This document shows positions 2,838 through 40,045 of a DNA stretch of 41,210 nucleotides, one piece after another (position 1 is the first letter of the stretch; every line of letters begins with the position of its first letter). Under the pieces are notes generated by a model. The model had not been told where the DNA came from and did no database searches. It saw only the letters and a program-made list of their open reading frames with translations. A program made the position numbers and the translations under genes. Source of the DNA: a virus. The DNA lies in IMG/VR virus record IMGVR_UViG_3300031576_001286, positions 1 through 41,210 of that record. One strand, written 5' to 3'.

Positions 2838-3068
2838 ATGCCTAATACGATGCTCTTCAAAGGCCGCCTCATCAAGGACGCCCGCATCGCCCTGGGATGG
2901 TCCAGACCCGACCTGATCCGGAAGCTGCAAGAGTTCGGGTTCATTCTCGCGGAGCGCACCCTCGCCAATTGGGAAGAGGAGGAAACCGCGCCCGGAGCCG
3001 ATGATCTCGCCATTCTGGCCAGAGCTCTCTCCAAGCCGGTGATGGCTTTTTATTTGCGCGACGAGTGA
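2838..3068 (+). CDS. Cro-like XRE-family regulator
   Basis: 76 aa, essentially one helix-turn-helix domain: IKDARIALGWSRPDLIRKL, then the recognition segment AERTLANWEEEETAP and DLAILARALS. It is divergent from the S24 repressor, so a Cro-like role (shutting down the repressor operon and tuning the early promoter) is likely. The ATG at 2838 lies only 9 bases after the -10, so translation would be leaderless; an alternative ATG at 2850 also lacks a good Shine-Dalgarno. Confidence 0.86.
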   Translation: MPNTMLFKGRLIKDARIALGWSRPDLIRKLQEFGFILAERTLANWEEEETAPGADDLAILARALSKPVMAFYLRDE

Positions 3069-3082
3069 AGTCAAGGACTTGA

Positions 3083-3268
3083 ATGGATAAGCGCGACGAC
3101 AAGGTCACCGTCCGAGTGCCGCACGAACTCAAGCGCCGCATCAGGAAGCGCGCGGCCAAGCATGGACAGTCGATGAGCATGGCGATTCTCCGACTCCTCG
3201 ATTACGCGCTGCACATTGAAGATTATAAACCGAGTGCGTGGAGCGAGGATGTGCCGGATGAGGACTAA
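3083..3268 (+). CDS. Arc/MetJ-like ribbon-helix-helix protein
   Basis: 61 aa. VTVRVPHELKRRIRKRAAKHGQS matches the ribbon-helix-helix fold: a beta strand with alternating residues (KVTVRV), PxxL, a basic helix A, then SMSMAILRLLDYAL as helix B. It should bind DNA as a dimer. It lies 14 bp after the Cro-like gene and overlaps the next gene by 11 bp. Role inferred as an early-gene regulator like P22 Arc. Confidence 0.85.
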   Translation: MDKRDDKVTVRVPHELKRRIRKRAAKHGQSMSMAILRLLDYALHIEDYKPSAWSEDVPDED

Positions 3269-3495: not shown

Positions 3496-3568
3496 GTAAG
3501 ACGTAGGCCGGTGGATCGGCTTGCTGTTTAGTGTAGGGCATCGCAGGACGAAACGCAAGGAGGCAGGG

Positions 3569-4609
3569 ATGGCCGGACGAGCATTGAAGCCGGCGGAGGC
3601 GCTCGAGACGGTGCGCGGGTTGCTGACGAAGGCGCGGCCGCAGCTGACCGCCGCGCTCCCGAAGCACTTGGGCGGCGTGGACCGCTTCACGCGGATCGCG
3701 CTGACCGCGTGCCAGAAGCAGCCGCAGCTGCTCGAATGCGCGCCGATGACCTTCATCGGGGCGCTGTTGCAGAGCGCGCAGCTGGGACTCGAGGTCAGCG
3801 ATGGAACGGGCAAGGCGTGGCTGGTGCCGTTCTTCAACAACAAGAAGGGCCGGCGGGAGGTCCAGTTGATCATCGGCTACCGCGGGATGATCGACCTGGC
3901 GCGGCGCGGGATGCCGGCGTACCCGATCGAGGCGCGGGTCGTGTGCGAGGGCGACACGTTCAGCTACGCCTACGGCACGAAGGCGGGGGTCGTCCACGTC
4001 CCGGCCGACCCCTCGAGCGGCAAGCCGACGCACTTCTACGCGGTCGCCCGTTTCCCGAACGGCACGGTCCAGTTCGACGTGATGACGAAGGTGGCGGTCG
4101 ACCGGATCCGGGCCCGCGCGAAGGCGCAGGAGACCGGGCCGTGGAACACCGACTACGAAGAAATGGGGAAAAAGACCGTCGTCCGTCGGATCTGCAAGCT
4201 GCTGCCGTGCAGCGTCGAGCTCTTGCGGGCGATCGATCTCGACGAGCGACACGAGCTCGGCAAGCCGCAGGATCTCGGGACGTTGGCGACGGACGAGGAG
4301 TTTGGCACCGTGATCGACGGCGATATCCTCGGCGACGAGGAACCCGCCCCGGTGCCGAGCGCTGCCAAGCCGGCCGCGCCGGGCGAGCTGGCACTCAAGG
4401 GGGCCTCGGACGGGGAGCGGCTCTGGAACGCGCTCATGGACGACGTGGGCGGCAACAACGAGGAGGCGTCGAACCGGCTCGAGCAGCTCTCGGCGTTCAA
4501 GGGGCGCAGTGGGATCGTGCCCGGTGTGCGGGACTGGAAGCGGCTCTCGGACGGGCGGGCGAAGCGGACGCTGGATGACTACCTCAAGTCGCGCACAGCC
4601 ACGGCCTAA
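3569..4609 (+). CDS. recT: RecT-family single-strand annealing protein
   Basis: 346 aa from the ATG at 3569, which has an excellent Shine-Dalgarno (AAGGAGG). RecT hallmarks are present: AALPKHLGGVDRF near the N-terminus, QLLECAPMTFIGALLQSAQLGLE, then the beta core VQLIIGYRGMIDLARR, and FYAVARFPNG with the later MGKKTVVRRICKLLP helix. The C-terminal ~100 residues are acidic and variable, as usual in this family. It anneals complementary strands in phage recombination. The next gene, overlapping by 35 bp, is a PD-(D/E)XK nuclease that may supply the 5'-3' resection role of RecE. Confidence 0.95.
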   Translation: MAGRALKPAEALETVRGLLTKARPQLTAALPKHLGGVDRFTRIALTACQKQPQLLECAPMTFIGALLQSAQLGLEVSDGTGKAWLVPFFNNKKGRREVQLIIGYRGMIDLARRGMPAYPIEARVVCEGDTFSYAYGTKAGVVHVPADPSSGKPTHFYAVARFPNGTVQFDVMTKVAVDRIRARAKAQETGPWNTDYEEMGKKTVVRRICKLLPCSVELLRAIDLDERHELGKPQDLGTLATDEEFGTVIDGDILGDEEPAPVPSAAKPAAPGELALKGASDGERLWNALMDDVGGNNEEASNRLEQLSAFKGRSGIVPGVRDWKRLSDGRAKRTLDDYLKSRTATA

Positions 4610-5198
4610 GCTCGTCTGCACGCCGGACCACCGCTACTTCCTCGGGACGCGCGAGATCCCGGGCAATACGGCGGTCCTGCGGGCATCCGGGTACGGGCAT
4701 GACTTCGGTGGGTGGGCCGACCTGCAGCGGGGCCGGCACGTGCACGCCGAGTGCCGCTACCTGACCGAAGGCCGGTTGCGGTGGGCGCTAGTGACGGAGC
4801 GCCGTCTGCCGTACGTCCAGGGGTGGGCGGGGTTCCTACGGGTCAGCGGGTTCAAGGCCAAGCCCGGGTGGCTCGAGCGGCCGACGCATTGCCGTCGGCA
4901 CGGCTTCGCCACGCGCCCGGACGTCGTCGGATACCTCAACCGGCGACTGGTGGTCGTACAGATCAAGACCGGCTCGGCGGATTCCTCCGTCGGGCCGCAG
5001 ACGGCCGGAGAGGCGCTGGCCGTGGAGGACGCGCTCGGCGTGCGGCCGGAGCGGTTCGTGGTCGTGCTGCCGGGCAACGGGTGGTTCAAGCTCAAGCGAT
5101 TGACGTCGCGCGCGGACCGGCAGGCGTTCTTGGCGGCGCTGACGACATGGAACATGCGGAGGCAGCTCGGATGGAACGGAAAGCAGGAAAAGCGTTGA
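4575..5198 (+). CDS. PD-(D/E)XK nuclease-like protein next to RecT
   Basis: 207 aa from the ATG at 4575 inside the end of recT; a longer frame opens at 4509. The core RPDVVGYLN-RRLVVVQIKTG matches the phage PD-(D/E)XK pattern (PD, a hairpin, then an (E/D/Q)xK strand), followed by a PQTAGEALA helix and a C-terminal FLAALTTWN segment typical of these RecB-like phage proteins. The usual D/E before xK is Gln (QIK), a variant known in the superfamily, for example in Mrr-type enzymes. Likely the nuclease partner of RecT; activity is not proven by sequence. Confidence 0.7.
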   Translation: MTTSSRAQPRPKLVCTPDHRYFLGTREIPGNTAVLRASGYGHDFGGWADLQRGRHVHAECRYLTEGRLRWALVTERRLPYVQGWAGFLRVSGFKAKPGWLERPTHCRRHGFATRPDVVGYLNRRLVVVQIKTGSADSSVGPQTAGEALAVEDALGVRPERFVVVLPGNGWFKLKRLTSRADRQAFLAALTTWNMRRQLGWNGKQEKR

Positions 5199-5874: not shown

Positions 5875-6209
5875 AGATCGAGCAGGCAATCGAGGAAATG
5901 AAGCGCCGCTATCCAGACAAGACATGGGCGCTGACGGCGGAGGCGATGTTTTACGGCCCTCCGACCGGGGCGTTGAAAATCCGGCTCTCCGGCTATGTCG
6001 ATCCGGGGCCAGGCGCCAGTGGGTTCAAGACGGATGATCGCGGTTCCTGGGAGGCGGTGCTGGTTGAACTGGAACTGACGGAGCGGCTGCGACTGCTCAA
6101 GCGGGATGACCGGATCGAAGCAGAGCCGGAGCACTTGAACGACATGCAGAAAGAGGCGACCGTCCAGGCAGAAACACCAGCGGACGCAACAAACCAGGCG
6201 CCGTTCTGA
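5871..6209 (+). CDS. Unknown early protein
   Basis: 112 aa, good Shine-Dalgarno (AGGAGG, spacing 5). Predicted mixed alpha/beta: an N-terminal helix (IEQAIEEMKRRYP), beta strands (TGALKIRLSGYV) and a C-terminal polar tail ending NQAPF. No family recognised. The gene sits between recombination and nuclease genes and its stop overlaps the next ATG as TGATG, so it is part of the DNA-metabolism operon. Confidence 0.72.
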   Translation: MKIEQAIEEMKRRYPDKTWALTAEAMFYGPPTGALKIRLSGYVDPGPGASGFKTDDRGSWEAVLVELELTERLRLLKRDDRIEAEPEHLNDMQKEATVQAETPADATNQAPF

Positions 6210-6937
6210 TGGCCGAACACTACGTCTCACCATCAGCGCTCGGGGACTTCCGGAAGTGCCGGCGGTGCTTTTGGCTGGATCGCAATCAGAAGATCAAACG
6301 GCCGCGCGGGGCGTTCCCGACGCTGCCGGGCGGGATCGACCGGGTGATGAAGGCGTACTTCGACGAGCACCGGGCCAAGGGGACGCTGCCGCCGGAGATT
6401 GCGGACGCAATGCCGGGCGACGGGGAAGGGACGACGCTCTACAGCGACACGGTGCATCTGACGGCGATGCGGAACGCGCGCAAGCCGGTGCTGCAGATGA
6501 TCATCGGCAACGTGAAGCTCGTCGGCGGGATCGATGACTTGCTCGTCGGACCAGGAGGAGGCGTCTCGCCATTCGATGTAAAGACAAAGGGGAGCCTCAT
6601 CAAGCCGGACGCGGACCCGTTCGAGTGGTACCGGATGCAGCTCAACGACTACGGGCTGCTGCTCCAGGCGGGCGGGTTCGCGCTGACCGGGCAGGGCTAC
6701 CTCGGCTACTGGTCGCCCGTCCAGGTGATGGCGAAGCCAGCCGACCTGAAGGCGATGCCGACGTCGACGTGGATGGCGTTCCAGTGCCAGGTCTTCGAGA
6801 TGGACCTCGACCTGGAGGCTGCGCGCGCGGAGGTCATGGACGCCGGGACGTGCCTGGATGGCGAGCTGCCCGAGGCGGACCCGGGCTGCGAGACGTGCGC
6901 CTTCGTGGCCGAGGCCGCGACGGCGGTGGCGGCGTAG
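6209..6937 (+). CDS. RecB/Cas4-like PD-(D/E)XK exonuclease with Cys cluster
   Basis: 242 aa. It opens with VSPSALGDFRKCRRCFWL, the start motif of RecB/Cas4/AddB-type nucleases. The catalytic core is GGIDDLL followed by PFDVKTKG (D and D-x-K), then a QLNDYGLLLQ helix (the conserved QxxxY motif). Cysteines C17/C20 at the N-terminus and C215, C227, C230 at the C-terminus could hold a 4Fe-4S cluster as in Cas4/AddB. Starts at TGATG with the preceding stop. Probably a phage exonuclease for recombination or replication end processing. Confidence 0.85.
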   Translation: MAEHYVSPSALGDFRKCRRCFWLDRNQKIKRPRGAFPTLPGGIDRVMKAYFDEHRAKGTLPPEIADAMPGDGEGTTLYSDTVHLTAMRNARKPVLQMIIGNVKLVGGIDDLLVGPGGGVSPFDVKTKGSLIKPDADPFEWYRMQLNDYGLLLQAGGFALTGQGYLGYWSPVQVMAKPADLKAMPTSTWMAFQCQVFEMDLDLEAARAEVMDAGTCLDGELPEADPGCETCAFVAEAATAVAA

Positions 6938-6967: not shown

Positions 6968-7738
6968 ATGGCGAAATACCAGGGCGTGCTGACGAGCGTC
7001 TGGGACGATCCGGTCTTCCAGGCCTGGCCGAAAGACGCGAAGCTCGTGTTCCTAAACCTCATCACGAGCCAGCGGCACAACCCGGCCGGGCTCTACGCGG
7101 TGACGCGCGAGACGCTGCAATTCGAGACCGGGCTTTCCGCGGAGGAGTTCGCCGCGGCCTTCAAGGTCCTGCTCGCGGTGCCGGCGGACGAGGACTACGC
7201 GCGTGTCCGCTTCGATGAGCGCCACAAGGTCGTCTGGCTCGTGAACGCGCTGAAGCATCAGCCAGCGCTGACGGAGGAGAACGCGAACCTGATCCGCAAT
7301 GTGCAGGCGGTGCTGCGGCAGTACGTCGAGAGCCCGCTGGTCGGCGAGTGCGTTGCGCTCTACCGGAAGCGTGACTGCGGGTTCGTCTTCGCGGGGTTCA
7401 ACGGGTACGTGAAGAAGGGGCTTATAAGGGGCTCGCTAGGGGCTTCCAAGCCCCCCAATAAGGATAGACCTAAAGATAAAGCTATCAATAGAGATACGGG
7501 TACAGCCAAGGCCTTGACAGAGCCGGACGTCGCGGCGCTCGTCAAAGACTTTGGGAAGCCGCTCGTGGAGCGCGAGCTGCCGCGGCTGGCGCGGTGGCTG
7601 AAGGGCAAGCCGGACCTCATGCCGAAGATCCGGGACATGGCGGCGTTCGCCCGGCGATGGGTCGAGCGGTCGTCTCAGGGCGAGCGCGACCTCGAGAAGC
7701 TCGCGGGCTTGGCGCGCGGGATCGCGAGGAGCGGCTGA
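6968..7738 (+). CDS. Phage replication initiator (DnaD/O-like)
   Basis: 256 aa. The N-terminal ~120 residues (VWDDPVFQAWPKDAKLVFLNLITSQRHNP...GLYAVTRETL) match the winged-helix domain of phage replisome organizers. A charged, low-complexity linker (about 150-180, NKDRPKDKAINRDTG) is encoded by unusually AT-rich DNA that forms the origin-like block at 7417-7497, as in lambda O where the origin lies inside the gene. The C-terminal helices (LVERELPRLARWLKG) may contact helicase loaders. No helicase or primase gene is evident nearby, so host helicase recruitment is likely. Confidence 0.8.
   Translation: MAKYQGVLTSVWDDPVFQAWPKDAKLVFLNLITSQRHNPAGLYAVTRETLQFETGLSAEEFAAAFKVLLAVPADEDYARVRFDERHKVVWLVNALKHQPALTEENANLIRNVQAVLRQYVESPLVGECVALYRKRDCGFVFAGFNGYVKKGLIRGSLGASKPPNKDRPKDKAINRDTGTAKALTEPDVAALVKDFGKPLVERELPRLARWLKGKPDLMPKIRDMAAFARRWVERSSQGERDLEKLAGLARGIARSG
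7417..7497. other. Candidate replication origin inside the initiator gene
   Basis: Three direct repeats of GGGGCTY begin at 7417, 7428 and 7439, spaced exactly 11 bp (one helical turn). The third forms a perfect inverted repeat GGGGCTT-CC-AAGCCCC (7439-7454). Immediately after comes an AT- and purine-rich tract (7457-7497, AATAAGGATAGACC... to AGAGATA) that stands out in this GC-rich genome and would suit duplex unwinding. Iterons plus AT-rich tract inside an initiator gene mirrors the lambda origin in O. Confidence 0.65.
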
Positions 7739-9450: not shown

Positions 9451-9720
9451 ATGGGCGAGGCAGTCAAGACGCGCGTGCGGCGGGGCAAGCAGTTGATGCT
9501 CTTTGAGGTCACCGAGCACGACAGTTCGCTGGCGAAGGCCTGCGATCAGTTCCTCGAGGCGCGCGATGGGCTGGAGCAGGCCAAGGAGGCGGTCGAGGCG
9601 GCGCGGAACCTGCTGGTGGTCGAGATGGAGAAAGTCCGCCGGACGTCGGTCAAGCATAGTGGGCGAATCTTCACGCTGCGGCAGACGGATCCGAAGGTGA
9701 GCATTACGGTCAAAGAATGA
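9451..9720 (+). CDS. Small coiled-coil protein upstream of HerA-like ATPase
   Basis: 89 aa from the ATG at 9451 (GGAGG six bases upstream); another ATG lies at 9439. Residues about 25-60 form an amphipathic helix (KACDQFLEARDGLEQAKEAVEAARNLLVVEMEKV), then a beta-rich tail with R-x-F-x-L. The stop overlaps the ATPase start as ATGA, so the two are translationally coupled and may act together. Function unknown. Confidence 0.65.
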   Translation: MGEAVKTRVRRGKQLMLFEVTEHDSSLAKACDQFLEARDGLEQAKEAVEAARNLLVVEMEKVRRTSVKHSGRIFTLRQTDPKVSITVKE

Positions 9721-11120
9721 GCCCGCAGACGCTCGACCTCGGGACGACGGCGACGGGGCGGCCCTTCACGATGCCGCTGGACGCCGCCGTACAGACCTTC
9801 GCGATCTTGGCGATCCGCGGGGCCGGGAAAACCTGTACGGCGACGGTGATCGCCGAGGAGTTCTGTCGCGCACGACTGCCGTGGATCTGCTTCGATCCCG
9901 TCGGTGTCTGGTGGGGGATCCGGGCCACGCACGAGGGCAAGCCGGGCGGGTTCCCGGTCGTCGTCATCGGCGGCGACCATGCGGACATCCCGCTGGAACG
10001 GACGGCCGGGGCGAAGGTCGCCGAAGCGCTGATGGCCGAGCCGGTGGCGGCGGTGATCGACCTCAGCACGGAGTCGAAGCGCTTCTGGCATACGTTCCTG
10101 ACGGACTTCTGCCTGGCGCTGATGACGATGAGCCCGGAGATCCCGCGCCACCTGTTCATCGAGGAGGCGCCGGAGTTCGTGCCGCAGCGGACGCGGGTCG
10201 AGCTGACGGCGCGGTGCAAGGAGGCGATCGATCGGATCGTGCGGCTCGGACGCAATCGCGGCTATGGCTGCACGCTGATCTCGCAGCGGCCGGCGACGGT
10301 CGACAAGGACGTGCTGAGCCAATGCGAGAACCTGCTGGTGCTGCGGACCGTCGGGACGCACGACCGGAAGGCGCTGCAGGAGTGGATCGAGGCGAAGGCC
10401 AGCGACCGGCAGCTTGACACGTTCTGGAAAGAACTCGCCTCGCTGCCCAACGGGACGGCCTGGTGGTGGTCGCCGCATTGGCTCGGACGGTTCGAGAAAG
10501 TGCGGATCCGCGAGCGCATGACGTACCATCCCGGGGCGACGCGGCAGGTCGGCAAGGCGGCGAAGTCCGTGGCGCTGGCGGACGTCGGCCAGTTCGTCGA
10601 AAAGCTCCGACGGCAGCTGACCAAGACGAGCGTGCCGGCGGGCGCGACGGGGCTCGTGCGTCCGCCGCGCTCGAGCGTCGTCGGCACCGGCACCGTCGAG
10701 ACCGGCACCGGGCGCGTCCTGTCCGTCGAGGTCGACGTGGACAAGCTGCAGGTGATGGCGCGCCAGCTCGCCGACTGGCGTGGGCGGGCCCAGGCCGCCG
10801 AGCAGAAGCTCGAGGCGGTGCGGAAGCTGCTGCGTCCGGACTACGAGGCGTTGCGCGCGCTGTTCGACGAGCTCAAGGCTGGCGAGATCGTGCAGGCCGA
10901 CGGCCATCTCTACGGGCCGTGGCTGGAGAAGGCCGGTGGGAAGGGCTGCAAGCGGCTATTGGAGGTGATGATCGAGCGCCGCGAGCTGACGAAGCATCAG
11001 CTGGCGACGCTGGCGACGGTGTCCTTCAAGAGCAGTACCTTCCGTGGCTACATGGCGTGGCTCAAGCGCAACGGGCTCGTCGAGGTCGACGGCGAGACGG
11101 TGCGGCTGCGGAATCTGTAG
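9717..11120 (+). CDS. HerA-like (DUF87/DUF853-type) ATPase with C-terminal winged helix
   Basis: 467 aa. N-terminal HerA/FtsK-fold ATPase: a P-loop IRGAGKT at 33-39 (no Gly at the first P-loop position), Walker B HLFIEEAPEF (E149/E150), an arginine-rich RIVRLGRNRGYG stretch and the sensor motif LISQRPA (Gln190) typical of HerA translocases. Residues about 275-400 contain a helical linker with predicted coiled coil (LQVMARQLADWRGRAQAAEQK), and the C-terminal ~60 residues form a winged helix (ELTKHQLATLATVSFKSSTFRGYMAWLKRNGLV). Such proteins pump or track along DNA. The VRR-NUC-type nuclease 330 bp downstream in the same operon is a plausible partner. Confidence 0.85.
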   Translation: MSPQTLDLGTTATGRPFTMPLDAAVQTFAILAIRGAGKTCTATVIAEEFCRARLPWICFDPVGVWWGIRATHEGKPGGFPVVVIGGDHADIPLERTAGAKVAEALMAEPVAAVIDLSTESKRFWHTFLTDFCLALMTMSPEIPRHLFIEEAPEFVPQRTRVELTARCKEAIDRIVRLGRNRGYGCTLISQRPATVDKDVLSQCENLLVLRTVGTHDRKALQEWIEAKASDRQLDTFWKELASLPNGTAWWWSPHWLGRFEKVRIRERMTYHPGATRQVGKAAKSVALADVGQFVEKLRRQLTKTSVPAGATGLVRPPRSSVVGTGTVETGTGRVLSVEVDVDKLQVMARQLADWRGRAQAAEQKLEAVRKLLRPDYEALRALFDELKAGEIVQADGHLYGPWLEKAGGKGCKRLLEVMIERRELTKHQLATLATVSFKSSTFRGYMAWLKRNGLVEVDGETVRLRNL

Positions 11121-11453: not shown

Positions 11454-11782
11454 GCGAGTCGACGCTCGTGACCGCGTGCCTGATGCTCCTGAAGGCGCAC
11501 CGGATCCGGGCTTGGCGGCAGAACGCTGGCAGCATGGCGGCGAGCGCCGGGGGGAAGCGGTACTGGATGCGGCTGGGCGAGAAAGGCATGAGCGACATCG
11601 GCGGGGTCCTGCCGGACGGGCGCTACCTGGCGGTGGAGTGCAAGCGGCCGGGCAACCGGCTCACGCTGGAGCAGCGGGCGTTCCTGGTGGACGTGAACGC
11701 GCGCGGCGGGGCCGGGATCGTGGTCTGGTCCTCCGACCAGCTGGAGCGGGAGCTGCGGGGGCGTGGGTTGTGGAGCGCATGA
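11450..11782 (+). CDS. VRR-NUC-type nuclease (PD-(D/E)XK)
   Basis: 110 aa. GMSDIGGVLPDGRYLAVECKRPGNRLTLEQRAFLVDVNARGG carries the VRR-NUC core: D of SDI, E-x-K in AVECK, then a Q-R-x-F helix. These minimal PD-(D/E)XK proteins act on branched DNA, as Holliday-junction resolvases or similar. In phage early operons they may resolve replication or recombination intermediates. ATGA overlap with the preceding TM gene. Confidence 0.87.
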   Translation: MSESTLVTACLMLLKAHRIRAWRQNAGSMAASAGGKRYWMRLGEKGMSDIGGVLPDGRYLAVECKRPGNRLTLEQRAFLVDVNARGGAGIVVWSSDQLERELRGRGLWSA

Positions 11783-11792
11783 GGAGGCGGCG

Positions 11793-13232
11793 ATGAGTGA
11801 GGCAAAACAGGGGGTGCTGCTGTTGGAGAAGGTGCAGCCGTCGAAGACCAACCCGCGGCGGCACGTCGATCCGGCGCGGCAGCAGGAGCTGACGGCCAGC
11901 GTGGTCAAGCACGGCGTCATGACGCCGATCCTGGTCCGGCCGGTGAACGCGCACTTTGAGATCGTCGCCGGCGAGCGCCGCTTCCGCGCGGCGAAGGCCG
12001 CCGGCCTGAAAGAGATCCCGGCGGTCATCCGCGAGCTGAGCGACGCGGACGCGCTCGAGCTGCAGATGGTGGAGAACCTGCAGCGCGATGATCTCCATCC
12101 GCTCGAGGAAGCCGAGGGCTACCGGCAGCTACTGCAGGTGAAGTTCGGGCCCGGTCGGCAGGCCTACGATGCCGCCAAGATCGCCGAGCGCGTCGGCCGC
12201 TCGGTCAAGTACGTCTACGACCGGATCAAGCTGCTGCAGCTCATCGAGCCGATCCACAAGGTGTTCCTGGAAGGGCGCATCACCGCAGGGCATGCCATCT
12301 TGCTGGCACGGCTCTCGCCGCAGGATCAGAAGCTCGTCGCCGACCGGAACCACGGCGGCCTGTACGCGCATGAGGACGCGCACTTCAAGGAGATCGTCGG
12401 CGAGTCGGACGGGTACAAGGTCCGCAGCGTGCGGGAGCTGCAGCAATTCATCGACGAGCACTGCCGGTTCGTGCCCGAGCGCGACGCCGACCCGATGCTG
12501 TTCCCGGAGACCGCGGCGATCCTCAAGACCGCGGACGCGAAGAAGAAGTCCGACAAGATCGTGCCTATCACCTACGGCTACGTGCAGGACTCCGCGCGGC
12601 ATGGCGAGAAGCACATCGCGCCGACGTCCTGGGAGCGGGCCGATGGCAAGAAGGGCTCGAGGACGTGCGAGTTCTCCGTGATCGGGGTGGTGGTCGCCGG
12701 CGAGAACCGCGCCCAGGCGTTCCGCGTCTGCACGAACAAGGAGAAGTGCAAGACCCACTGGGCGGCGTGGCAGAAAGCACGCGCCAATCGCCTCGGCACG
12801 ACCGGCCTGAAGACCGAAGGGATGAGCGACGCCGAGCGCCAGCGCAAGGAGCGCGCGGCACGCGAGGCCCAAGAGGCCAAGCAGAAAGCGGAGAAGGAGC
12901 GCTGGGAGCGGGCGGTGCCGGCGATCGCCCAAGCGCTCGCCGCCGCGGTGAAGAAGGCACCGGCCAAGGCCACCGGGCTCCTGGCGGACCTGATCCTGGA
13001 CAGTATGGGGGACAGCTACCTGGAGAAAGGCGCGGACAAGTATCTCGCTCGCGGGACCAGCGCCGAGGACTTGATCCGGTACATCGCCTTCAACGTGGTG
13101 TACGGCCAGATCGACAACCAGTGGGACCGAGAGAACTTCCTCAAGACCGCGAAAGCGTTGGGCGTGGACGCGCAGAAGATCCTCGACCAGGTCGCCCCAG
13201 TGCAGACGTCTGCAGCGAAGGCCAAGAAATGA
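11793..13232 (+). CDS. ParB-like DNA-binding protein
   Basis: 479 aa from the ATG at 11793 (GAGGAGG upstream). The ParB/Spo0J N-terminal domain is plain: KVQPSKTNPRRHVD, LTASVVKHGVMTPILVRP, then the GERRFRAAKAAG CTPase motif and MVENLQRDDLHPLEEAEGY. A KorB-like helix-turn-helix follows (DAAKIAERVGRSVKYVYDRIKLLQL). The C-terminal half has a Cys-pair segment (RVCTNKEKCKTHW), a charged helix (about 350-385) and a conserved end domain. It resembles plasmid/PRTRC-type ParB proteins. No ParA is seen, so classic partitioning is not assured. Confidence 0.9.
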   Translation: MSEAKQGVLLLEKVQPSKTNPRRHVDPARQQELTASVVKHGVMTPILVRPVNAHFEIVAGERRFRAAKAAGLKEIPAVIRELSDADALELQMVENLQRDDLHPLEEAEGYRQLLQVKFGPGRQAYDAAKIAERVGRSVKYVYDRIKLLQLIEPIHKVFLEGRITAGHAILLARLSPQDQKLVADRNHGGLYAHEDAHFKEIVGESDGYKVRSVRELQQFIDEHCRFVPERDADPMLFPETAAILKTADAKKKSDKIVPITYGYVQDSARHGEKHIAPTSWERADGKKGSRTCEFSVIGVVVAGENRAQAFRVCTNKEKCKTHWAAWQKARANRLGTTGLKTEGMSDAERQRKERAAREAQEAKQKAEKERWERAVPAIAQALAAAVKKAPAKATGLLADLILDSMGDSYLEKGADKYLARGTSAEDLIRYIAFNVVYGQIDNQWDRENFLKTAKALGVDAQKILDQVAPVQTSAAKAKK

Positions 13233-15008: not shown

Positions 15009-16337
15009 ATGGACGTGGTGCATGTCCCACTCGCCGAGCTGACGAAGGTCGACTACAACCCGCGGAAGATCACGCCGCCGCAGTTCGAGGCGCTGAAGCA
15101 GTCGCTGCGTGCGGATCCGGAGTTCTTCGCGTCGCGGCCGTGCCTCGTGAACCAACGCGACGGGCAGCTCGTGATCTACGCCGGCAATATGCGCTTCGAG
15201 GCGGCGAAGGCGCTCGGCTGGGCGACGGTGCCGTGTCTCATCGCGACGCTCCCGCTCGCCCAGGAGCGGGAGCGGAATCTCAAGGACAACAACGAGTACG
15301 GCGAGTACGTCGACGACGCCTTGGCGGCGATGCTCTACCAGATGGCACAGGGCGGCACGTCGGTCGACGCGCTGGGCTTTAATGAGCGCGAGCTGCGCGT
15401 GCTGATGGACGAGGGCCGCGCGGCGATCGAGGGCGCGGGCCCGCCGGAGGATGACGTGCCAGCGCCGCCGGTGGAGGCCGTCACCCAACCCGGCGAGCTG
15501 ATCACGCTCGGGGCGCATCGGCTGCTCTGCGGGGACGCGACGAAGAAGGAGGACGTCCAGCGCCTCCTGGCCGGCGAGCAGGCGGATCTGTGCGCGACGG
15601 ATCCGCCGTACCTGGTCGATTACACGGGCTTGGCACGACCGGGGGGGGGCAAGGACTGGAGCGACACGTATCGCGAGGTCGACATCAAGAACGCGCAGCA
15701 GTTCTTCCACGAGACGTTCGCGCGGGTCCTCGAGGTCACGAAGCTGGGGGCGGCGATCTACTGCTGGCACGCGCATCGGCTGGTAGGCGTCATCATGGAG
15801 ACATGGAAAGGGCTCGGCATTCTCCCGCACCAGCAGATCGTCTGGGTCAAGCCGGCCGCGATGGCCAACTTCGCGTTCTGGGACTGGCAGCACGAACCCT
15901 GCCTGATGGGATGGCGTCAGGGTCACAAGCCGAACCATGACGGGATGAAGCGCGGCGCTCGGACGACAGTCTGGATCGTTGGGCTGCAGCGTAGCGGAGA
16001 TTCGATGGAAACGGACTACTACAGCGACGTCTGGGAGATGGACTGGGAAGGGCGCAAGCGCAACAACGGCGGCCTGCACCCGACGACGAAGCCCGTCGAG
16101 ATTTTCGCGCGGCCGATGCGCGTTCACACCGCGCAGGGGGCGCTCTGCTATGAGCCCTTTGCGGGCTCCGGCTCGCAGCTCATCGCGGCGGAGAAGCTGG
16201 CGCGGCGCTGCGTGGCGATGGAACTGGAACCGCGCTTCTGTGACGTCATCCGAGACCGCTACGCGGCCTACGTCGGCGAGCCGAAGTGGGCGGCGCATCC
16301 GAGCGCGGTCGAGCAACAATTGGCGGCGAGGACATGA
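15009..16337 (+). CDS. ParB-domain/DNA methyltransferase fusion (N6/N4 type)
   Basis: 442 aa. Residues 1-~90 form a ParB-like nuclease/CTPase-type domain (LTKVDYNPRKITPPQFEALKQSL, YAGNMRFEAAKALG; the ERR of true ParB is replaced by NMR). Residues ~160-430 are a DNA_methylase_N6_N4 domain with DPPY (198-201) preceding the SAM-binding motif FAGSGS (384-389), the order of the beta class. It should methylate adenine-N6 or cytosine-N4 in a short site. No restriction enzyme is nearby, so it looks like an orphan protecting or marking phage DNA. A run of nine G at 15641-15649 encodes part of residues 210-214. Good Shine-Dalgarno (GAGGAG). Confidence 0.93.
   Translation: MDVVHVPLAELTKVDYNPRKITPPQFEALKQSLRADPEFFASRPCLVNQRDGQLVIYAGNMRFEAAKALGWATVPCLIATLPLAQERERNLKDNNEYGEYVDDALAAMLYQMAQGGTSVDALGFNERELRVLMDEGRAAIEGAGPPEDDVPAPPVEAVTQPGELITLGAHRLLCGDATKKEDVQRLLAGEQADLCATDPPYLVDYTGLARPGGGKDWSDTYREVDIKNAQQFFHETFARVLEVTKLGAAIYCWHAHRLVGVIMETWKGLGILPHQQIVWVKPAAMANFAFWDWQHEPCLMGWRQGHKPNHDGMKRGARTTVWIVGLQRSGDSMETDYYSDVWEMDWEGRKRNNGGLHPTTKPVEIFARPMRVHTAQGALCYEPFAGSGSQLIAAEKLARRCVAMELEPRFCDVIRDRYAAYVGEPKWAAHPSAVEQQLAART
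15641..15649 (+). repeat. G9 homopolymer inside the methyltransferase gene
   Basis: Nine consecutive G, the longest mononucleotide run I noticed in the window, just after the DPPY codons. The frame is intact here. Loss or gain of one G would truncate the enzyme before its SAM motif, so the tract could act as a phase-variation switch. Confidence 0.7.
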
Positions 16338-18302: not shown

Positions 18303-18481
18303 AGGGCGCGACCGCGTGCACCGCGCTGTTCCTCGCGGGCCTCGGCTGCCTCGTCGGCGCCGCCTGGTGCGCGGGCCTCGCCGCCGGGCTGGCCGCGACG
18401 GGCGCGGTCGCCGTGCTCGTCTCGGGGTTGACGTACCGGAGCCTGCAACAACAGAAGGAGCACACGACCGATGGGACTTGA
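18299..18481 (+). CDS. Small two-TM protein between terminase and portal
   Basis: 60 aa from the ATGA-coupled ATG. Two hydrophobic, Ala/Gly/Cys-rich segments (about 5-22 and 24-45) and a polar C-terminus. It overlaps the portal start by 11 bp. Function unknown. Confidence 0.6.
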   Translation: MKGATACTALFLAGLGCLVGAAWCAGLAAGLAATGAVAVLVSGLTYRSLQQQKEHTTDGT

Positions 18482-20546
18482 CCTGCTCTCGCCGATCCTC
18501 CGTGCGCCGCGGCGCCCGCCGTTCGGGGCCATCCTGCCCGGCGACGCCGCGACGGGGCGCATCCCTCCGCGCGACTTCCGCGCCATGGTGAAGGCCGACA
18601 ATGACTGGGTCTACCGCTGCGCGCGCGTCAACGCGGAGAACATCTCGAAGGTGCCGCTGCGCCTGTACCGTCGGTCCACCGGCGAGGAGGTCGTGGAGCA
18701 CCCGTTCCTCGACCTGCTGCGGAACGTGAACCCGGAGCAGGGGCGCTTCGACCTGTTCGAGATGACGGAGCTGTTCTTGGAGCTCGTCGGGAACAGCTAC
18801 TGGTACGTCGCGCCGATGCTGCTGGAGAACCCGGTGACGAAGCGGCGGGTGCCCGGGGAAATCTGGACGCTGCAGGCGCAGTACGTCAAGATTGTGCCGG
18901 GCCGGTCGCGCATGGTCGACGGCTACCTGTACCAATCCCCAGGGACGCCGACGGTGGCCTTCGAGCCGGAGGAGATCCTGCACTTCAAGTTCCCATCGGC
19001 GGAGAGCCTATACTACGGGAAGGGCCCGGTGGAGGGCGGACGCGCGGCGGTGAACACGCACGAGTCGATGGCCGCCTACGAGGCCGCGCTCTTCCGGAAC
19101 ATGGCCAGGCCCGACGGGGCGCTCATCACGGACAAGGACCTCGCGCCCGAGCAGATCAAAGCCTTGCGGGCCGAGTGGGCGCGGATCCACCAGGGCGCGG
19201 ACCGCAGCGGCAACGTGGCGATTCTGCAGCGCGGCCTGAAGTACGAGGCGATGGGGACGACGCCGAAGGAGCTCGACTACCTCGCAGGGAAGGCGTACAA
19301 CCGCGAGCAGATTGCCGCGATGTTTGGCGTGCCGCTCTCGAAGCTCGGGATCGAGATCGCGGCGGACCGGGCGGCGGCGGAGGCGCACGACCTGACGTAC
19401 CAGAAGGAGACGATCGCGCCGCGGCTGGAGCGGATCGCCTCGAAGCTCAACGAGCGGATGCTGCCGATCTACGACGCGGACTTGGAGGCGCGCTTCGACG
19501 ACCCGGTGCCGGAGAACAACGAGATGGCGCTGAAGAAGCGCGACTCGGACCTGGACCGCGGCGTCATCACGATCAATGAGGTCAGGCGTGAGGAGGGCCT
19601 CGAGGACGTCGAGTGGGGCGACGAGCCGTTCGTGAAGTCGCCCGTGATCAACTTCGGGACCGGCGTGGACGGCGGCGCGCAGGACGACGAGGACGAGAAG
19701 GCGATCATCACGATCTGCGGCGTCGATTCGAAATCTGCCCAGGCGTTCCTGCATCGGAACGCCGGGACGCTCGAGGAGATCATCAGGCGCACGCGCAAAG
19801 CCGGACGCTGGGAGCGGTTCATCGCGGCGACGTGGCCGTTGGAGAAGTCCACGCGCCGACAGATGCGGCAGTTCTTCGTCGAGCAGCGCCGGATCGTCGA
19901 GGGGAACCTGGACAAGATGCGGAGCCTGCCGTCGCGGAAAGCGGTGGACCCGCTCGTGGCGTCGATCCTGTTCTCGCTCGGGGCCGAGAAGGTCCGGCTG
20001 GCCGGCGTGGCGAAGCCGTTGCTCGAGCAAGCCCTCGCGATCGGCGCGGCCTTCGGCGGTGAGGGACTGAGCGACATCGACTTCGACGTGCTCAACCCGC
20101 TGGTGCTGGAGGCGTTGCGGGAGCGCGTCGAGTTCCTGAGCACGCGGGTCAATGAGGAGACGGCACGGGCGCTCACCGAGCAGATCGCGGCCGGGATCGA
20201 AGCTGGCGAGACGACGCAGCAGATCGCGGACCGGATCGCGGACGTGTACGAGCAGGCGACCGGCTATCGGGCGATTCGGATCGCGCGGACCGAGATCCTG
20301 AGCGCCTCAAACAAGGGCGCGACGGCCGCGTACAAGGCCGGTGGCGCGACCGGCAAACGGTGGGTGACGGCCGGGGATGAGCTGGTCCGGGAGAGCCACC
20401 GCGCGGCCAACGGGCAGGTGGTCGGGATCGCGCAGAAGTTCACGGTGGGGGACTCGCAGCTGGACCACCCCGGGGACCCAGCCGGAGCGCCCGGAGAGAT
20501 CATCAACTGCCGGTGCACCACCGTTGCGGTCGTTGAGCGCGGATGA
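18471..20546 (+). CDS. Portal protein fused to MuF-like head morphogenesis domain
   Basis: 691 aa. Residues ~1-400 are an HK97-family portal (DNDWVYRCARVNAENISKVPLRLYRR, FEPEEILHFKFPSAESLYYGKGP, EQIAAMFGVPLSKLGI). After an acidic linker (GAQDDEDEK near 405) and a helical spacer, residues ~560-691 carry a MuF-type minor head domain ending AGAPGEIINCRCTTV, the diagnostic C-rich motif. Usually these are two genes (portal and Mu gp30/SPP1 gp7-like); here they are one chain. Shine-Dalgarno AAGGAG. Confidence 0.92.
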   Translation: MGLDLLSPILRAPRRPPFGAILPGDAATGRIPPRDFRAMVKADNDWVYRCARVNAENISKVPLRLYRRSTGEEVVEHPFLDLLRNVNPEQGRFDLFEMTELFLELVGNSYWYVAPMLLENPVTKRRVPGEIWTLQAQYVKIVPGRSRMVDGYLYQSPGTPTVAFEPEEILHFKFPSAESLYYGKGPVEGGRAAVNTHESMAAYEAALFRNMARPDGALITDKDLAPEQIKALRAEWARIHQGADRSGNVAILQRGLKYEAMGTTPKELDYLAGKAYNREQIAAMFGVPLSKLGIEIAADRAAAEAHDLTYQKETIAPRLERIASKLNERMLPIYDADLEARFDDPVPENNEMALKKRDSDLDRGVITINEVRREEGLEDVEWGDEPFVKSPVINFGTGVDGGAQDDEDEKAIITICGVDSKSAQAFLHRNAGTLEEIIRRTRKAGRWERFIAATWPLEKSTRRQMRQFFVEQRRIVEGNLDKMRSLPSRKAVDPLVASILFSLGAEKVRLAGVAKPLLEQALAIGAAFGGEGLSDIDFDVLNPLVLEALRERVEFLSTRVNEETARALTEQIAAGIEAGETTQQIADRIADVYEQATGYRAIRIARTEILSASNKGATAAYKAGGATGKRWVTAGDELVRESHRAANGQVVGIAQKFTVGDSQLDHPGDPAGAPGEIINCRCTTVAVVERG

Positions 20547-20635
20547 GCCAGCGTCGGGAGATGCGACCGAGCGCGGCAAGAGCCTCGTCGACCAGTGGCT
20601 CTGACAGCGACGGAGAGGTCGTGTGTGTCGTCTAA

Positions 20636-20745
20636 GGGGCTTGTTGGGGGCTTAGAAAGGACTAATAAGGGGCTTGGGACCCCCTCATTAAGGATAAGGA
20701 TAGGAATAAGGCTAGATATAGCTTTATAGATCCCGTAAAGCTTTA
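20636..20745. other. Second origin-like iteron block (intergenic)
   Basis: GGGGCTT at 20636, 20647 and 20669, with a degenerate copy (AGGACTA) at 20658: four units at exact 11-bp period. The last leads into CCCCC, then A-T-TAAGGATA and an AT/purine-rich tract to a perfect palindrome TAAAGCTTTA (20736-20745). The order iterons, G/C inverted segment, (A)TAAGGATA tract, AAGCTATC/TATAGCTT matches the block at 7417-7497. One reading frame (PLIKDKDRNKA...) also resembles initiator linkers, so it could be a relic of a replication gene. Confidence 0.6.
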
Positions 20746-20765
20746 GTACTTGTCAGAGAAAATGC

Positions 20766-20795
20766 TTGACAACGCCAAGGCAATAGGAACAGAAT
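20766..20795 (+). promoter_or_regulatory. Promoter-like sequence before the protease/capsid operon
   Basis: TTGACA (20766-20771), an 18-bp spacer, CAGAAT (20790-20795): 6/6 and 4/6. The surrounding GCTTGACAACG is identical to that at 14926. It would start transcription of the capsid operon near 20802. Confidence 0.6.
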
Positions 20796-20831
20796 CGCCG
20801 CGTACGGTCTAACCGGGGGGTGCGAGGTGTG

Positions 20832-20888
20832 ATGAGCAGCGCGGCTCTTTTTATTTGCCTGGAAAATCAAGTCAAGGGCTTAAGTTGA
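20832..20888 (+). CDS. Putative 18-aa leader peptide of the protease gene
   Basis: ATG at 20832 with GAGGTG upstream encodes MSSAALFICLENQVKGLS and stops two bases before the protease ATG at 20891. A small GAGC/GCTC hairpin and the TTTTTATTT run lie within it. The protease start has no close Shine-Dalgarno of its own, so reinitiation after this leader is plausible. Confidence 0.4.
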   Translation: MSSAALFICLENQVKGLS

Positions 20889-20890
20889 CT

Positions 20891-21955
20891 ATGCTCACCG
20901 TAACCGAACCGGTTGAATCCCTCCGCACGCAGAAGCTGTCCCTGGTCGATCCCGCGAACGCCGAGCTCGCCCAGCGCCTGGGCCTGCCGGGAGGCGAGCT
21001 CATCCGGATCTTCTGCCTCGGCCTCGAGCAAGCGAAAGACGCCGACGGCCAGCGCCCGGTGCTCGTGAGCACGGACGACGTCGACCGCATGGGCGACATC
21101 GTCGAGCCGGACGGCATGGACCTCGGCAACTACCGCAAGAATCCCGTGATCCTCTGGGCGCATGACTACACGCTGCCGCCGATCGGCTCGTCGCTGTGGA
21201 TCCGGCGCCAGGAGCACGGCCTGCTCGCCAAGCCGCGGTGGGCCTCGACCGAGTTCGCGCAACAGATCAAGCTGCTCTACGACGAAGGCCACCTGCGGGC
21301 GTGGTCCATCGGCTTCCTCGTGAAGGAGTGGGAGCCGATCGTCGCCAAGGACAAAGACGGCCAGGAGCGCACGACGGGCTATCGCTACACGAAGTCGGAG
21401 CTGCTGGAGTTCTCGGCGGTGCCGGTGCCGGCGAACCCTGAGGCGCTGAGTGAGGCGATGGCGAAGGGCCTCACCGTCGGGAAGGCGCTGCGCGAGCAGC
21501 TGGTGCCGACCAAGAGAAATAGCGTGGGCTATACCTCGACCGCTGTGCCTGGAGATCCGCTGCACCGGACGCAACAGCAGATCGACAATGCGACGGCTCC
21601 CGTCGCGGCGGCGTGCGACGTATGCGCGGCGCTGCGCGAGCAGGTCGAGGCGCTGCGCGTGGAGCGTGACGACGCCAAGAACGCCAACGATCGGTTCGCG
21701 CAGGCCGTCGTTGAGTTGAACACGAAGATCGCCGCGCTCGAGGCGCAGCTGGCAGCGGCGACCGAAGAACTGACGAAGATCAAGGACACAGGGAACCAGG
21801 CGATCCGCATCGACATCGCGCGGATCAAGGCGCAGGGCGCGGAGGCCGTGATCAAAGTCGACGGCGTGGAGCTCACGAGGCAGGAACTGATCAGCCTCGT
21901 GCGCGAGACAGTCGACGGGTTGATCCGGAAGCGCGCGGGCGTCGTGTCGGCGTGA
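20891..21955 (+). CDS. HK97-type prohead protease fused to scaffold domain
   Basis: 354 aa from the ATG at 20891 (in-frame TTG codons at 20885 and 20855 are alternatives). Residues ~40-200 are a peptidase U35/S78 domain with His91 (LWAHDY) and Ser139 (AWSIGF). After a linker, residues ~245-310 form a coiled coil (LREQVEALRVERDDAKN, KIAALEAQLAAATEEL) like HK97 scaffold/delta regions, and a C-terminal domain follows. It cleaves scaffold and capsid delta domains during maturation. Confidence 0.9.
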   Translation: MLTVTEPVESLRTQKLSLVDPANAELAQRLGLPGGELIRIFCLGLEQAKDADGQRPVLVSTDDVDRMGDIVEPDGMDLGNYRKNPVILWAHDYTLPPIGSSLWIRRQEHGLLAKPRWASTEFAQQIKLLYDEGHLRAWSIGFLVKEWEPIVAKDKDGQERTTGYRYTKSELLEFSAVPVPANPEALSEAMAKGLTVGKALREQLVPTKRNSVGYTSTAVPGDPLHRTQQQIDNATAPVAAACDVCAALREQVEALRVERDDAKNANDRFAQAVVELNTKIAALEAQLAAATEELTKIKDTGNQAIRIDIARIKAQGAEAVIKVDGVELTRQELISLVRETVDGLIRKRAGVVSA

Positions 21956-35769: not shown

Positions 35770-36291
35770 ATGGAAAATCGTGAGGAGATCGGCATGTCTG
35801 ACAGCCTGACGAAGGACGTCGGGAAGCACCTCACCGAGGACCTCAAGCTGACCGGCGAGTTCGAGCTGATTCACCAGGGCGCCGATGGGCAGGTGAAGGA
35901 GCGGCGCCTTGTGAAGAACCTCGTGGTGAGCGCCGGCAAGGCGGGGGTCGCCGGGCTCATCAACGGCGTCATCACGAACTTCTTCGAGCACATCGCCATC
36001 GGGACGGGCACGGTCGCGGCGGCGGCGGGCGATACCACGCTCGGCACGGAGATCACGACGGGCGGCGGAGCCCGAGCCGCCGGCACGACCTCGCGAGTGA
36101 CGACGACCGTCACGAACGACACCGCGCAGGTGGTGTTCGCCTTCGCCTTCACGGCCAGCTTCGCGGTGACCGAGGCCGGCCTGCTCGACTCGATCTCAGC
36201 CGGCACGCTTCTCTGCCGGCAGGTGTTCGCGGCCGTCAACGTGGTGAACAGCGACAGCCTGACGATTACCTGGAAGGTTGCGGTGAGTTGA
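35770..36291 (+). CDS. Phage tail/fibre-associated structural protein
   Basis: 173 aa from the ATG at 35770 (AGGAGGG upstream; ATGs at 35737 and 35794 are alternatives). NLVVSAGKAGVAGLI, then HIAIGTGT, TTLGTEI, TEAGLLD and DSLTITWKVAVS match a widespread phage beta structural protein, often annotated as tail fibre. Good synteny with neighbouring fibre genes. Confidence 0.72.
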   Translation: MENREEIGMSDSLTKDVGKHLTEDLKLTGEFELIHQGADGQVKERRLVKNLVVSAGKAGVAGLINGVITNFFEHIAIGTGTVAAAAGDTTLGTEITTGGGARAAGTTSRVTTTVTNDTAQVVFAFAFTASFAVTEAGLLDSISAGTLLCRQVFAAVNVVNSDSLTITWKVAVS

Positions 36292-39829: not shown

Positions 39830-40045
39830 ATGCCGACGCAGACGGTGGCACGCATGAATATCGCGCTCGACATGTCCAGGGCGGCGGCGCCTTGGCGGCG
39901 CGAGGGCGCGGCGAGGTCCGCGGCGCCACCAGGGGGAACCCAGAGGGATCCGAGGCCGGACGACGACGAGCTCGCGCACAAGCGGTGGGTCAACAGCTGG
40001 CACCAGTGGTATCTCCAGCACGTCGCGCAGACGTGGAGGGTCTGA
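39830..40045 (+). CDS. Small unknown protein before lysis-type genes
   Basis: 71 aa, basic and Trp-rich at the C-terminus (KRWVNSWHQWYLQHVAQTWRV). No family seen. A 68-bp gap precedes it in which I see no clear element. Confidence 0.52.
   Translation: MPTQTVARMNIALDMSRAAAPWRREGAARSAAPPGGTQRDPRPDDDELAHKRWVNSWHQWYLQHVAQTWRV

Follow-up and report, generated by a model that had tools for sequence, protein, structure and literature searches.

Results

Block B lies in a non-coding gap between the portal and protease genes

The window, by which I mean the whole 41,210-nucleotide stretch of viral DNA analysed here, comes from one metagenomic contig that is classed as linear. It encodes a tyrosine integrase and an S24-type repressor, and the phage is therefore probably temperate. 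A 344-bp non-coding gap in the head-gene region contains a repeat-bearing element that extends from 20635 to 20745 (hereafter block B). A related element (block A, 7416–7491) is found 13,230 bp away, in the same orientation. The features of the two regions are as follows.

3521–4609, plus strand: RecT-family recombinase (PF03837, E=1.7e-43), relevant to recombination-dependent late replication
6209–6937, plus strand: PD-(D/E)XK nuclease, adjoining the initiator gene (PF12705, E=2.6e-7)
6968–7738, plus strand: replisome-organizer/DnaD-like helicase-loader gene, here called the initiator gene (PHROG matches phrog_1701 and phrog_6251)
7416–7448, plus strand: block A iterons AGGGGCTTATA, AGGGGCTCGCT and AGGGGCTTCCA, within the initiator gene
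7449–7459, plus strand: block A inverted half-unit, AGCCCCCCAAT
7457–7496, no strand: block A AT-rich tract, the least stable 40-bp duplex of the window
18471–20546, plus strand: the gene immediately before block B, encoding a fusion of the portal protein with a Mu gpF-type head domain
20547–20890, no strand: the non-coding gap holding block B (344 bp)
20635–20678, plus strand: block B iterons AGGGGCTTGTT, GGGGGCTTAGA, AAGGACTAATA (degenerate) and AGGGGCTTGGG, with an 11-bp period
20679–20689, plus strand: block B in-phase C-run unit, ACCCCCTCATT, counterpart of the block A inverted half-unit
20688–20747, no strand: block B AT-rich tract with TAAGGA hexamers, the least stable 60-bp duplex of the window and a candidate DNA unwinding element
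20717–20745, no strand: inverted repeat TATAGCTTTA-N9-TAAAGCTTTA, which ends the block B AT-rich tract
20766–20795, plus strand: sigma-70-like promoter TTGACA-18-CAGAAT facing the protease gene, 20 bp past block B (a consensus match only)
20834–20858, plus strand: short GC hairpin followed by TTTTTATTT, just before the protease ribosome-binding site (read by eye)
20891–21955, plus strand: prohead protease (Peptidase_S78), the first gene past block B, with its start at ATG 20891 or TTG 20885

The original prediction described block B as four GGGGCTT-type units at an 11-bp period. The period is indeed kept throughout, but only three units are exact (20636, 20647 and 20669); the fourth, AGGACTA at 20658, is degenerate, with three mismatches. 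The C-run and the TAAGGATA tract predicted to follow are both present, the former as CCCCC at 20680–20684, in phase with the iterons, the latter at 20689 and 20695, so that GGGGCTT units, CCCCC and AAGGATAAGGATAGGAATAAGG succeed one another in one phase. Block A consists of three units, the inverted half-unit AGCCCCCC, of which block B has a weaker version, and then AAGGATA. The number of units in block A is three and not four. The TAGCTT/GCTATC piece is common to both blocks but not in the same orientation: ATAGCTTTAT at 20718–20727 matches the reverse complement, 7485–7476.

Folding of the gap as RNA (20547–20890) gave no structure exceeding shuffled sequences, and an Rfam search returned zero matches at gathering thresholds. 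The hairpin at 20834–20858 was not called by a terminator scan and folds no more strongly than shuffled sequences. Promoter-like sites at 2800, 14926 and 20765 share CTTGACAAC, and each is followed, before the next ribosome site, by a short hairpin and a T-run, an arrangement that possibly reflects antitermination control. The 3' part of the gap (20845–20890) is similar to 3044–3089, where the Cro-like gene ends and a ribosome-binding site follows (31 of 46 positions, the next best place giving 23). Elsewhere, the window encodes two ParB-like proteins (15009–16337 and 11763–13232), one of them fused to an N6/N4 DNA methylase, and, in the early region, a HerA-like ATPase (9717–11120); no DnaB-type helicase was recognised among the window genes scanned. 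GC skew is uninformative here because most genes lie on one strand.

The likeness between blocks A and B is specific and confined to the blocks

Without gaps, blocks A and B are identical at 51 of 76 positions, compared with 37 of 76 for the next best non-self place and a window mean of 18.8 (sd 3.6). Local alignment gives a score of 27, whereas none of 500 dinucleotide shuffles exceeded 15.5. The composite motif GGGGCTT-N5-CCCC-N5-AAGGATA occurs at just two places in the window, 7439 and 20669, even when three mismatches are tolerated (0.00 matches expected in shuffles), and these results together confirm that block B is a real feature. No further exact match to the composite was found in IMG/VR. 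A self-comparison of the initiator gene picks up block B at E=1.6e-6. In a scan for 11-bp self-similarity that uses no knowledge of the motif, the highest-ranked positions of the window are 7412 and 20631, together with a GC-rich site of equal rank at 39881. In duplex stability, no 40-bp segments of the window lie lower than 7457–7496 in block A and 20688–20727 in block B; over 60 bp the least stable segment belongs to block B.

An assembly artefact produced by a repeat join was considered and rejected, A and B differing at a third of their positions, which is too many for collapse.

The likeness does not extend beyond the blocks: flanking sequences gave similarity scores that were reached by 191 of 500 shuffles upstream and by 90 of 500 downstream. 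Within the blocks it is unevenly distributed. In the three units that can be aligned, 20 of 24 motif letters are identical but only 2 of 9 spacer letters, which is the chance level (p=0.002). Such sparing of the motif against randomised spacers is unlike the neutral decay of a copied block. Finally, in the frame equivalent to that of the initiator, block B is interrupted by stops at 20633, 20663, 20666 and 20744.

Block A belongs to a widespread class of in-gene origins

Block A encodes the linker of the initiator, and in the AlphaFold model this linker, at residues 147–200, has the low confidence of a disordered segment. A fold search with this model gave no significant match (best E=0.33); the weak matches include several winged-helix plasmid initiators. 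No close relatives of the initiator were found in IMG/VR. The protein matches phrog_1701 at 1–113, whereas the gp38-type protein of the SPP1-like phage 049ML001 matches phrog_1701 at 187–303, and phrog_428 and phrog_2514 better. Different halves of phrog_1701 being matched, the window initiator would be a remote relative of SPP1 gp38 at most.

The exact iteron triple has at least 120 matches in IMG/VR. Of 93 distinct arrays, 87 lie in open reading frames of at least 100 residues, most of which have linkers of the initiator type, for example SPSEAPSKPLRSQEQEQEQ or KGLIRGLQGRKDKDMDMD; in-gene phage origins of this class are therefore widespread, and block A is an unremarkable one. It shares with the in-gene origins of DnaD-like or replisome-organizer initiators the thrice-repeated AGGGGCTTNNN, the inverted half-unit, purine-rich hexamers and a K/P/Q/E-rich linker, and it fits the GGGGCTT-iteron class in having at least three units at 11 bp, such hexamers and a position in an initiator linker. 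Block B differs from this class, since it stands outside any initiator reading frame, in a portal–protease gap where the linker frame is stopped. The mutual match of A and B (51) exceeds the best match of either to any of 120 array-bearing loci (45 and 42).

Whole-record scans of 94 array-bearing records, with up to three mismatches allowed, showed that extra arrays are common but always lie no more than about 500 bp from the first, either inside the initiator gene or immediately upstream of it; none of the 94 has a distant array in a head-gene gap. In many records a second array is found some 230–275 bp from the linker array, often in the opposite orientation and toward the 5' part of the initiator gene, the spacing being nearly constant across phages. 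In L116/G057, arrays at 6159, 6377 and 6642 are clustered near one initiator gene, one of them directly before its ribosome-binding site, a placement that suggests autoregulation by the initiator. Another record, L131 (IMGVR_UViG_3300035148_000260), has a four-unit GGGGCTT array with AGTAAC hexamers at 9493–9532, non-coding and beside a terminase-small-like gene. It is possibly another origin that lies outside the initiator gene; the 18-kb contig contains no second array.

The gap has no counterpart in the relatives inspected

In six nearer relatives (portal or protease identity 29–71%), the portal–protease junction measures 3–25 bp. Among 78 relatives of the protease, the gap before the protease gene is at most 50 bp in 58 and exceeds 60 bp in about 20; 15 of these larger gaps were read and none contained an iteron array. 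Comparison of the gap DNA with known phages gave only a 39-bp match at chance level, and a scan of the genome collection with a capsid alignment gave no match. Given the short junctions and the lack of arrays in the gaps inspected, the gap is, within the collections searched, an insertion seen in this phage alone. No relative carrying the A/B pair or a matching replication module was found. Absence of the second block from relatives had been named in advance as evidence against it, and it is literally absent from the structural relatives; however, the five of these that were scanned have no array anywhere in their contigs, so that this absence does not bear on the pairing.

Discussion

Block B as a candidate distal origin

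In Bacillus phage SPP1, oriL lies within gene 38, which codes for the replisome organizer, and oriR about 12–13 kb away in a segment that interrupts the head genes; gp38 binds both, and each is made up of direct repeats and an AT-rich unwinding element (PMC6316719, PMC3485210). Replication starts at oriL, and gp38 bound at oriR is proposed, though not proven, to act as a barrier that stalls the fork and triggers the switch to concatemers (PMC6316719, PMC3485210).

By analogy, block A can be assigned the function of an oriL-type origin inside the initiator gene, and block B is probably (I put it at about 0.62) a second place where the phage's own replisome organizer binds and unwinds DNA, a distal origin of the oriR type. 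In either block, the 11-bp GGGGCTT units would be the binding sites of the initiator, which would melt the AT-rich tract beside them. At block A this would lead to helicase loading and the start of theta replication. At block B, 13.2 kb ahead and beside the head genes, it would provide either a late origin or a fork barrier that aids the switch to concatemers for packaging, a stage at which the encoded RecT and PD-(D/E)XK nuclease could assist. The sequence shows the paired grammar with its statistical significance, the duplex instability, the position and the parallel with SPP1; binding, melting and the late or barrier role are inferred.

Several explanations had been offered for block B, and they are supported to unequal degrees, best of all the second origin or initiator-binding site. 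In favour of a second origin are the origin grammar with its unwinding-prone tract, the mutual best match of the two blocks and a layout like that of oriL and oriR. Initiator binding might instead serve transcription. Block B would then be an initiator-binding operator acting on the promoter at 20766, so that expression of the protease, capsid and tail genes would follow replication or the level of the initiator. The distance of only 20 bp fits such a function, as does the recurrence of the CTTGACAAC -35 region upstream of the Cro-like and ParB-methylase genes, and the array directly before the initiator ribosome site in L116/G057 indicates that arrays may be control sites. However, an operator has no need of the full AT-rich tract that block B has kept, and the promoter is known as a consensus match. 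I therefore regard a purely operator function as unlikely, while control of the late promoter from block B would be a real alternative to the distal origin, or a role added to it.

Block B might also be a relic without function, left when illegitimate recombination carried part of an origin or initiator linker into the head genes. The gap appears to be private to this phage, it may be a mosaic of early-region pieces, as the resemblance of 20845–20890 to 3044–3089 would suggest, and a PLIKDKDRNKA frame can be read in block B. The linker fragment of the original prediction (PLIKDKDRN) is weakened by the same observations that speak against a relic. Since homology stops at the block edges and four in-frame stops break the linker frame, block B is not simply a linker fragment; motif positions are conserved while spacers are at chance; and the hexamers and the unwinding tract of block B equal or surpass those of block A. 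A relic is rather improbable on these grounds. A packaging (pac/cos) or partition (parS-like) site is far less credible still, and nothing specific was found in support of this part of the prediction. Block B does lie in the head module of a phage that encodes two ParB-like proteins, but it repeats initiator-linker sequence and is not built as a parS-like palindrome, the end of the terminase large-subunit gene is 2.2 kb upstream, and no sequence evidence links ParB to it. The motif/spacer contrast, the mutual best match of A and B, the unstable tracts, the edges of the homology and the stops thus lead me to favour the view that block B is a maintained origin-type element, apparently adapted to the phage's own initiator.

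Comparison with known two-site systems

I take phage P4 to offer a partial likeness to the A/B pair, in that ori and crr are presumably two distant iteron regions served by one initiator. P4 is unlike the window phage in its primase-helicase alpha initiator and in having crr and ori outside the head genes, and it serves as a lead only.

The closer likeness is to SPP1, whose layout was put through the same tests as the window, using the published SPP1-like phage 049ML001 (MN176227). A self-comparison of its initiator gene shows that the in-gene block at 35985 recurs at 4641–4725 (E=4.5e-14), in a 335-bp gap after portal and head-protein genes, and the lag-11 scan returns these two, the in-gene origin at 35985 and the gap site at 4641, as its top two sites. 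In Geobacillus phage GBK2 and Bacillus phage Silence, whose portals are related, in-gene repeats occur but self-comparison finds no distal copy; the dual layout is therefore not universal. Self-matching of the initiator gene, combined with lag-11 periodicity, constitutes a simple computational test for further cases, and a non-coding gap in a head operon can evidently carry replication signals that gene annotation leaves unmarked.

The two pairs differ in several respects. The iteron is AAARGACA in the SPP1-like 049ML001 and GGGGCTT here, and the initiators are at most distantly related. The window phage has a high GC content, an integrase, a repressor and an HK97-type protease, no moron genes flank block B, and its pair is known from sequence alone. 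What they share is the arrangement. In both, one block lies in the replisome-organizer gene and the other in a non-coding gap that follows the portal and head-protein genes and precedes the capsid genes; the blocks have the same orientation, are about 12–14 kb apart and combine direct repeats with an AT-rich unwinding tract. Recombination functions are alike too, RecT and a PD-(D/E)XK nuclease being encoded here, with a putative role in the switch. Both blocks carry that phage's own iteron, and the two iterons differ completely, so each distal site copies the in-gene site of its own phage. The window phage thus appears to be a new example, in an unrelated bacterial virus, of the dual layout known from SPP1. 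With an independent case that has other iterons and a distant initiator and keeps the relative position, the role of oriR becomes testable by comparison, as does the question whether oriR is peculiar to one group of phages. It is tempting, if still doubtful, to suppose that phages unrelated to one another, and with unrelated iterons, have repeatedly arrived at a distal origin placed after the portal or head-protein gene and about 13 kb in front of the in-gene one. The position itself would then be functional, for instance as a programmed fork barrier that starts concatemers or as a link between replication and head-gene expression.
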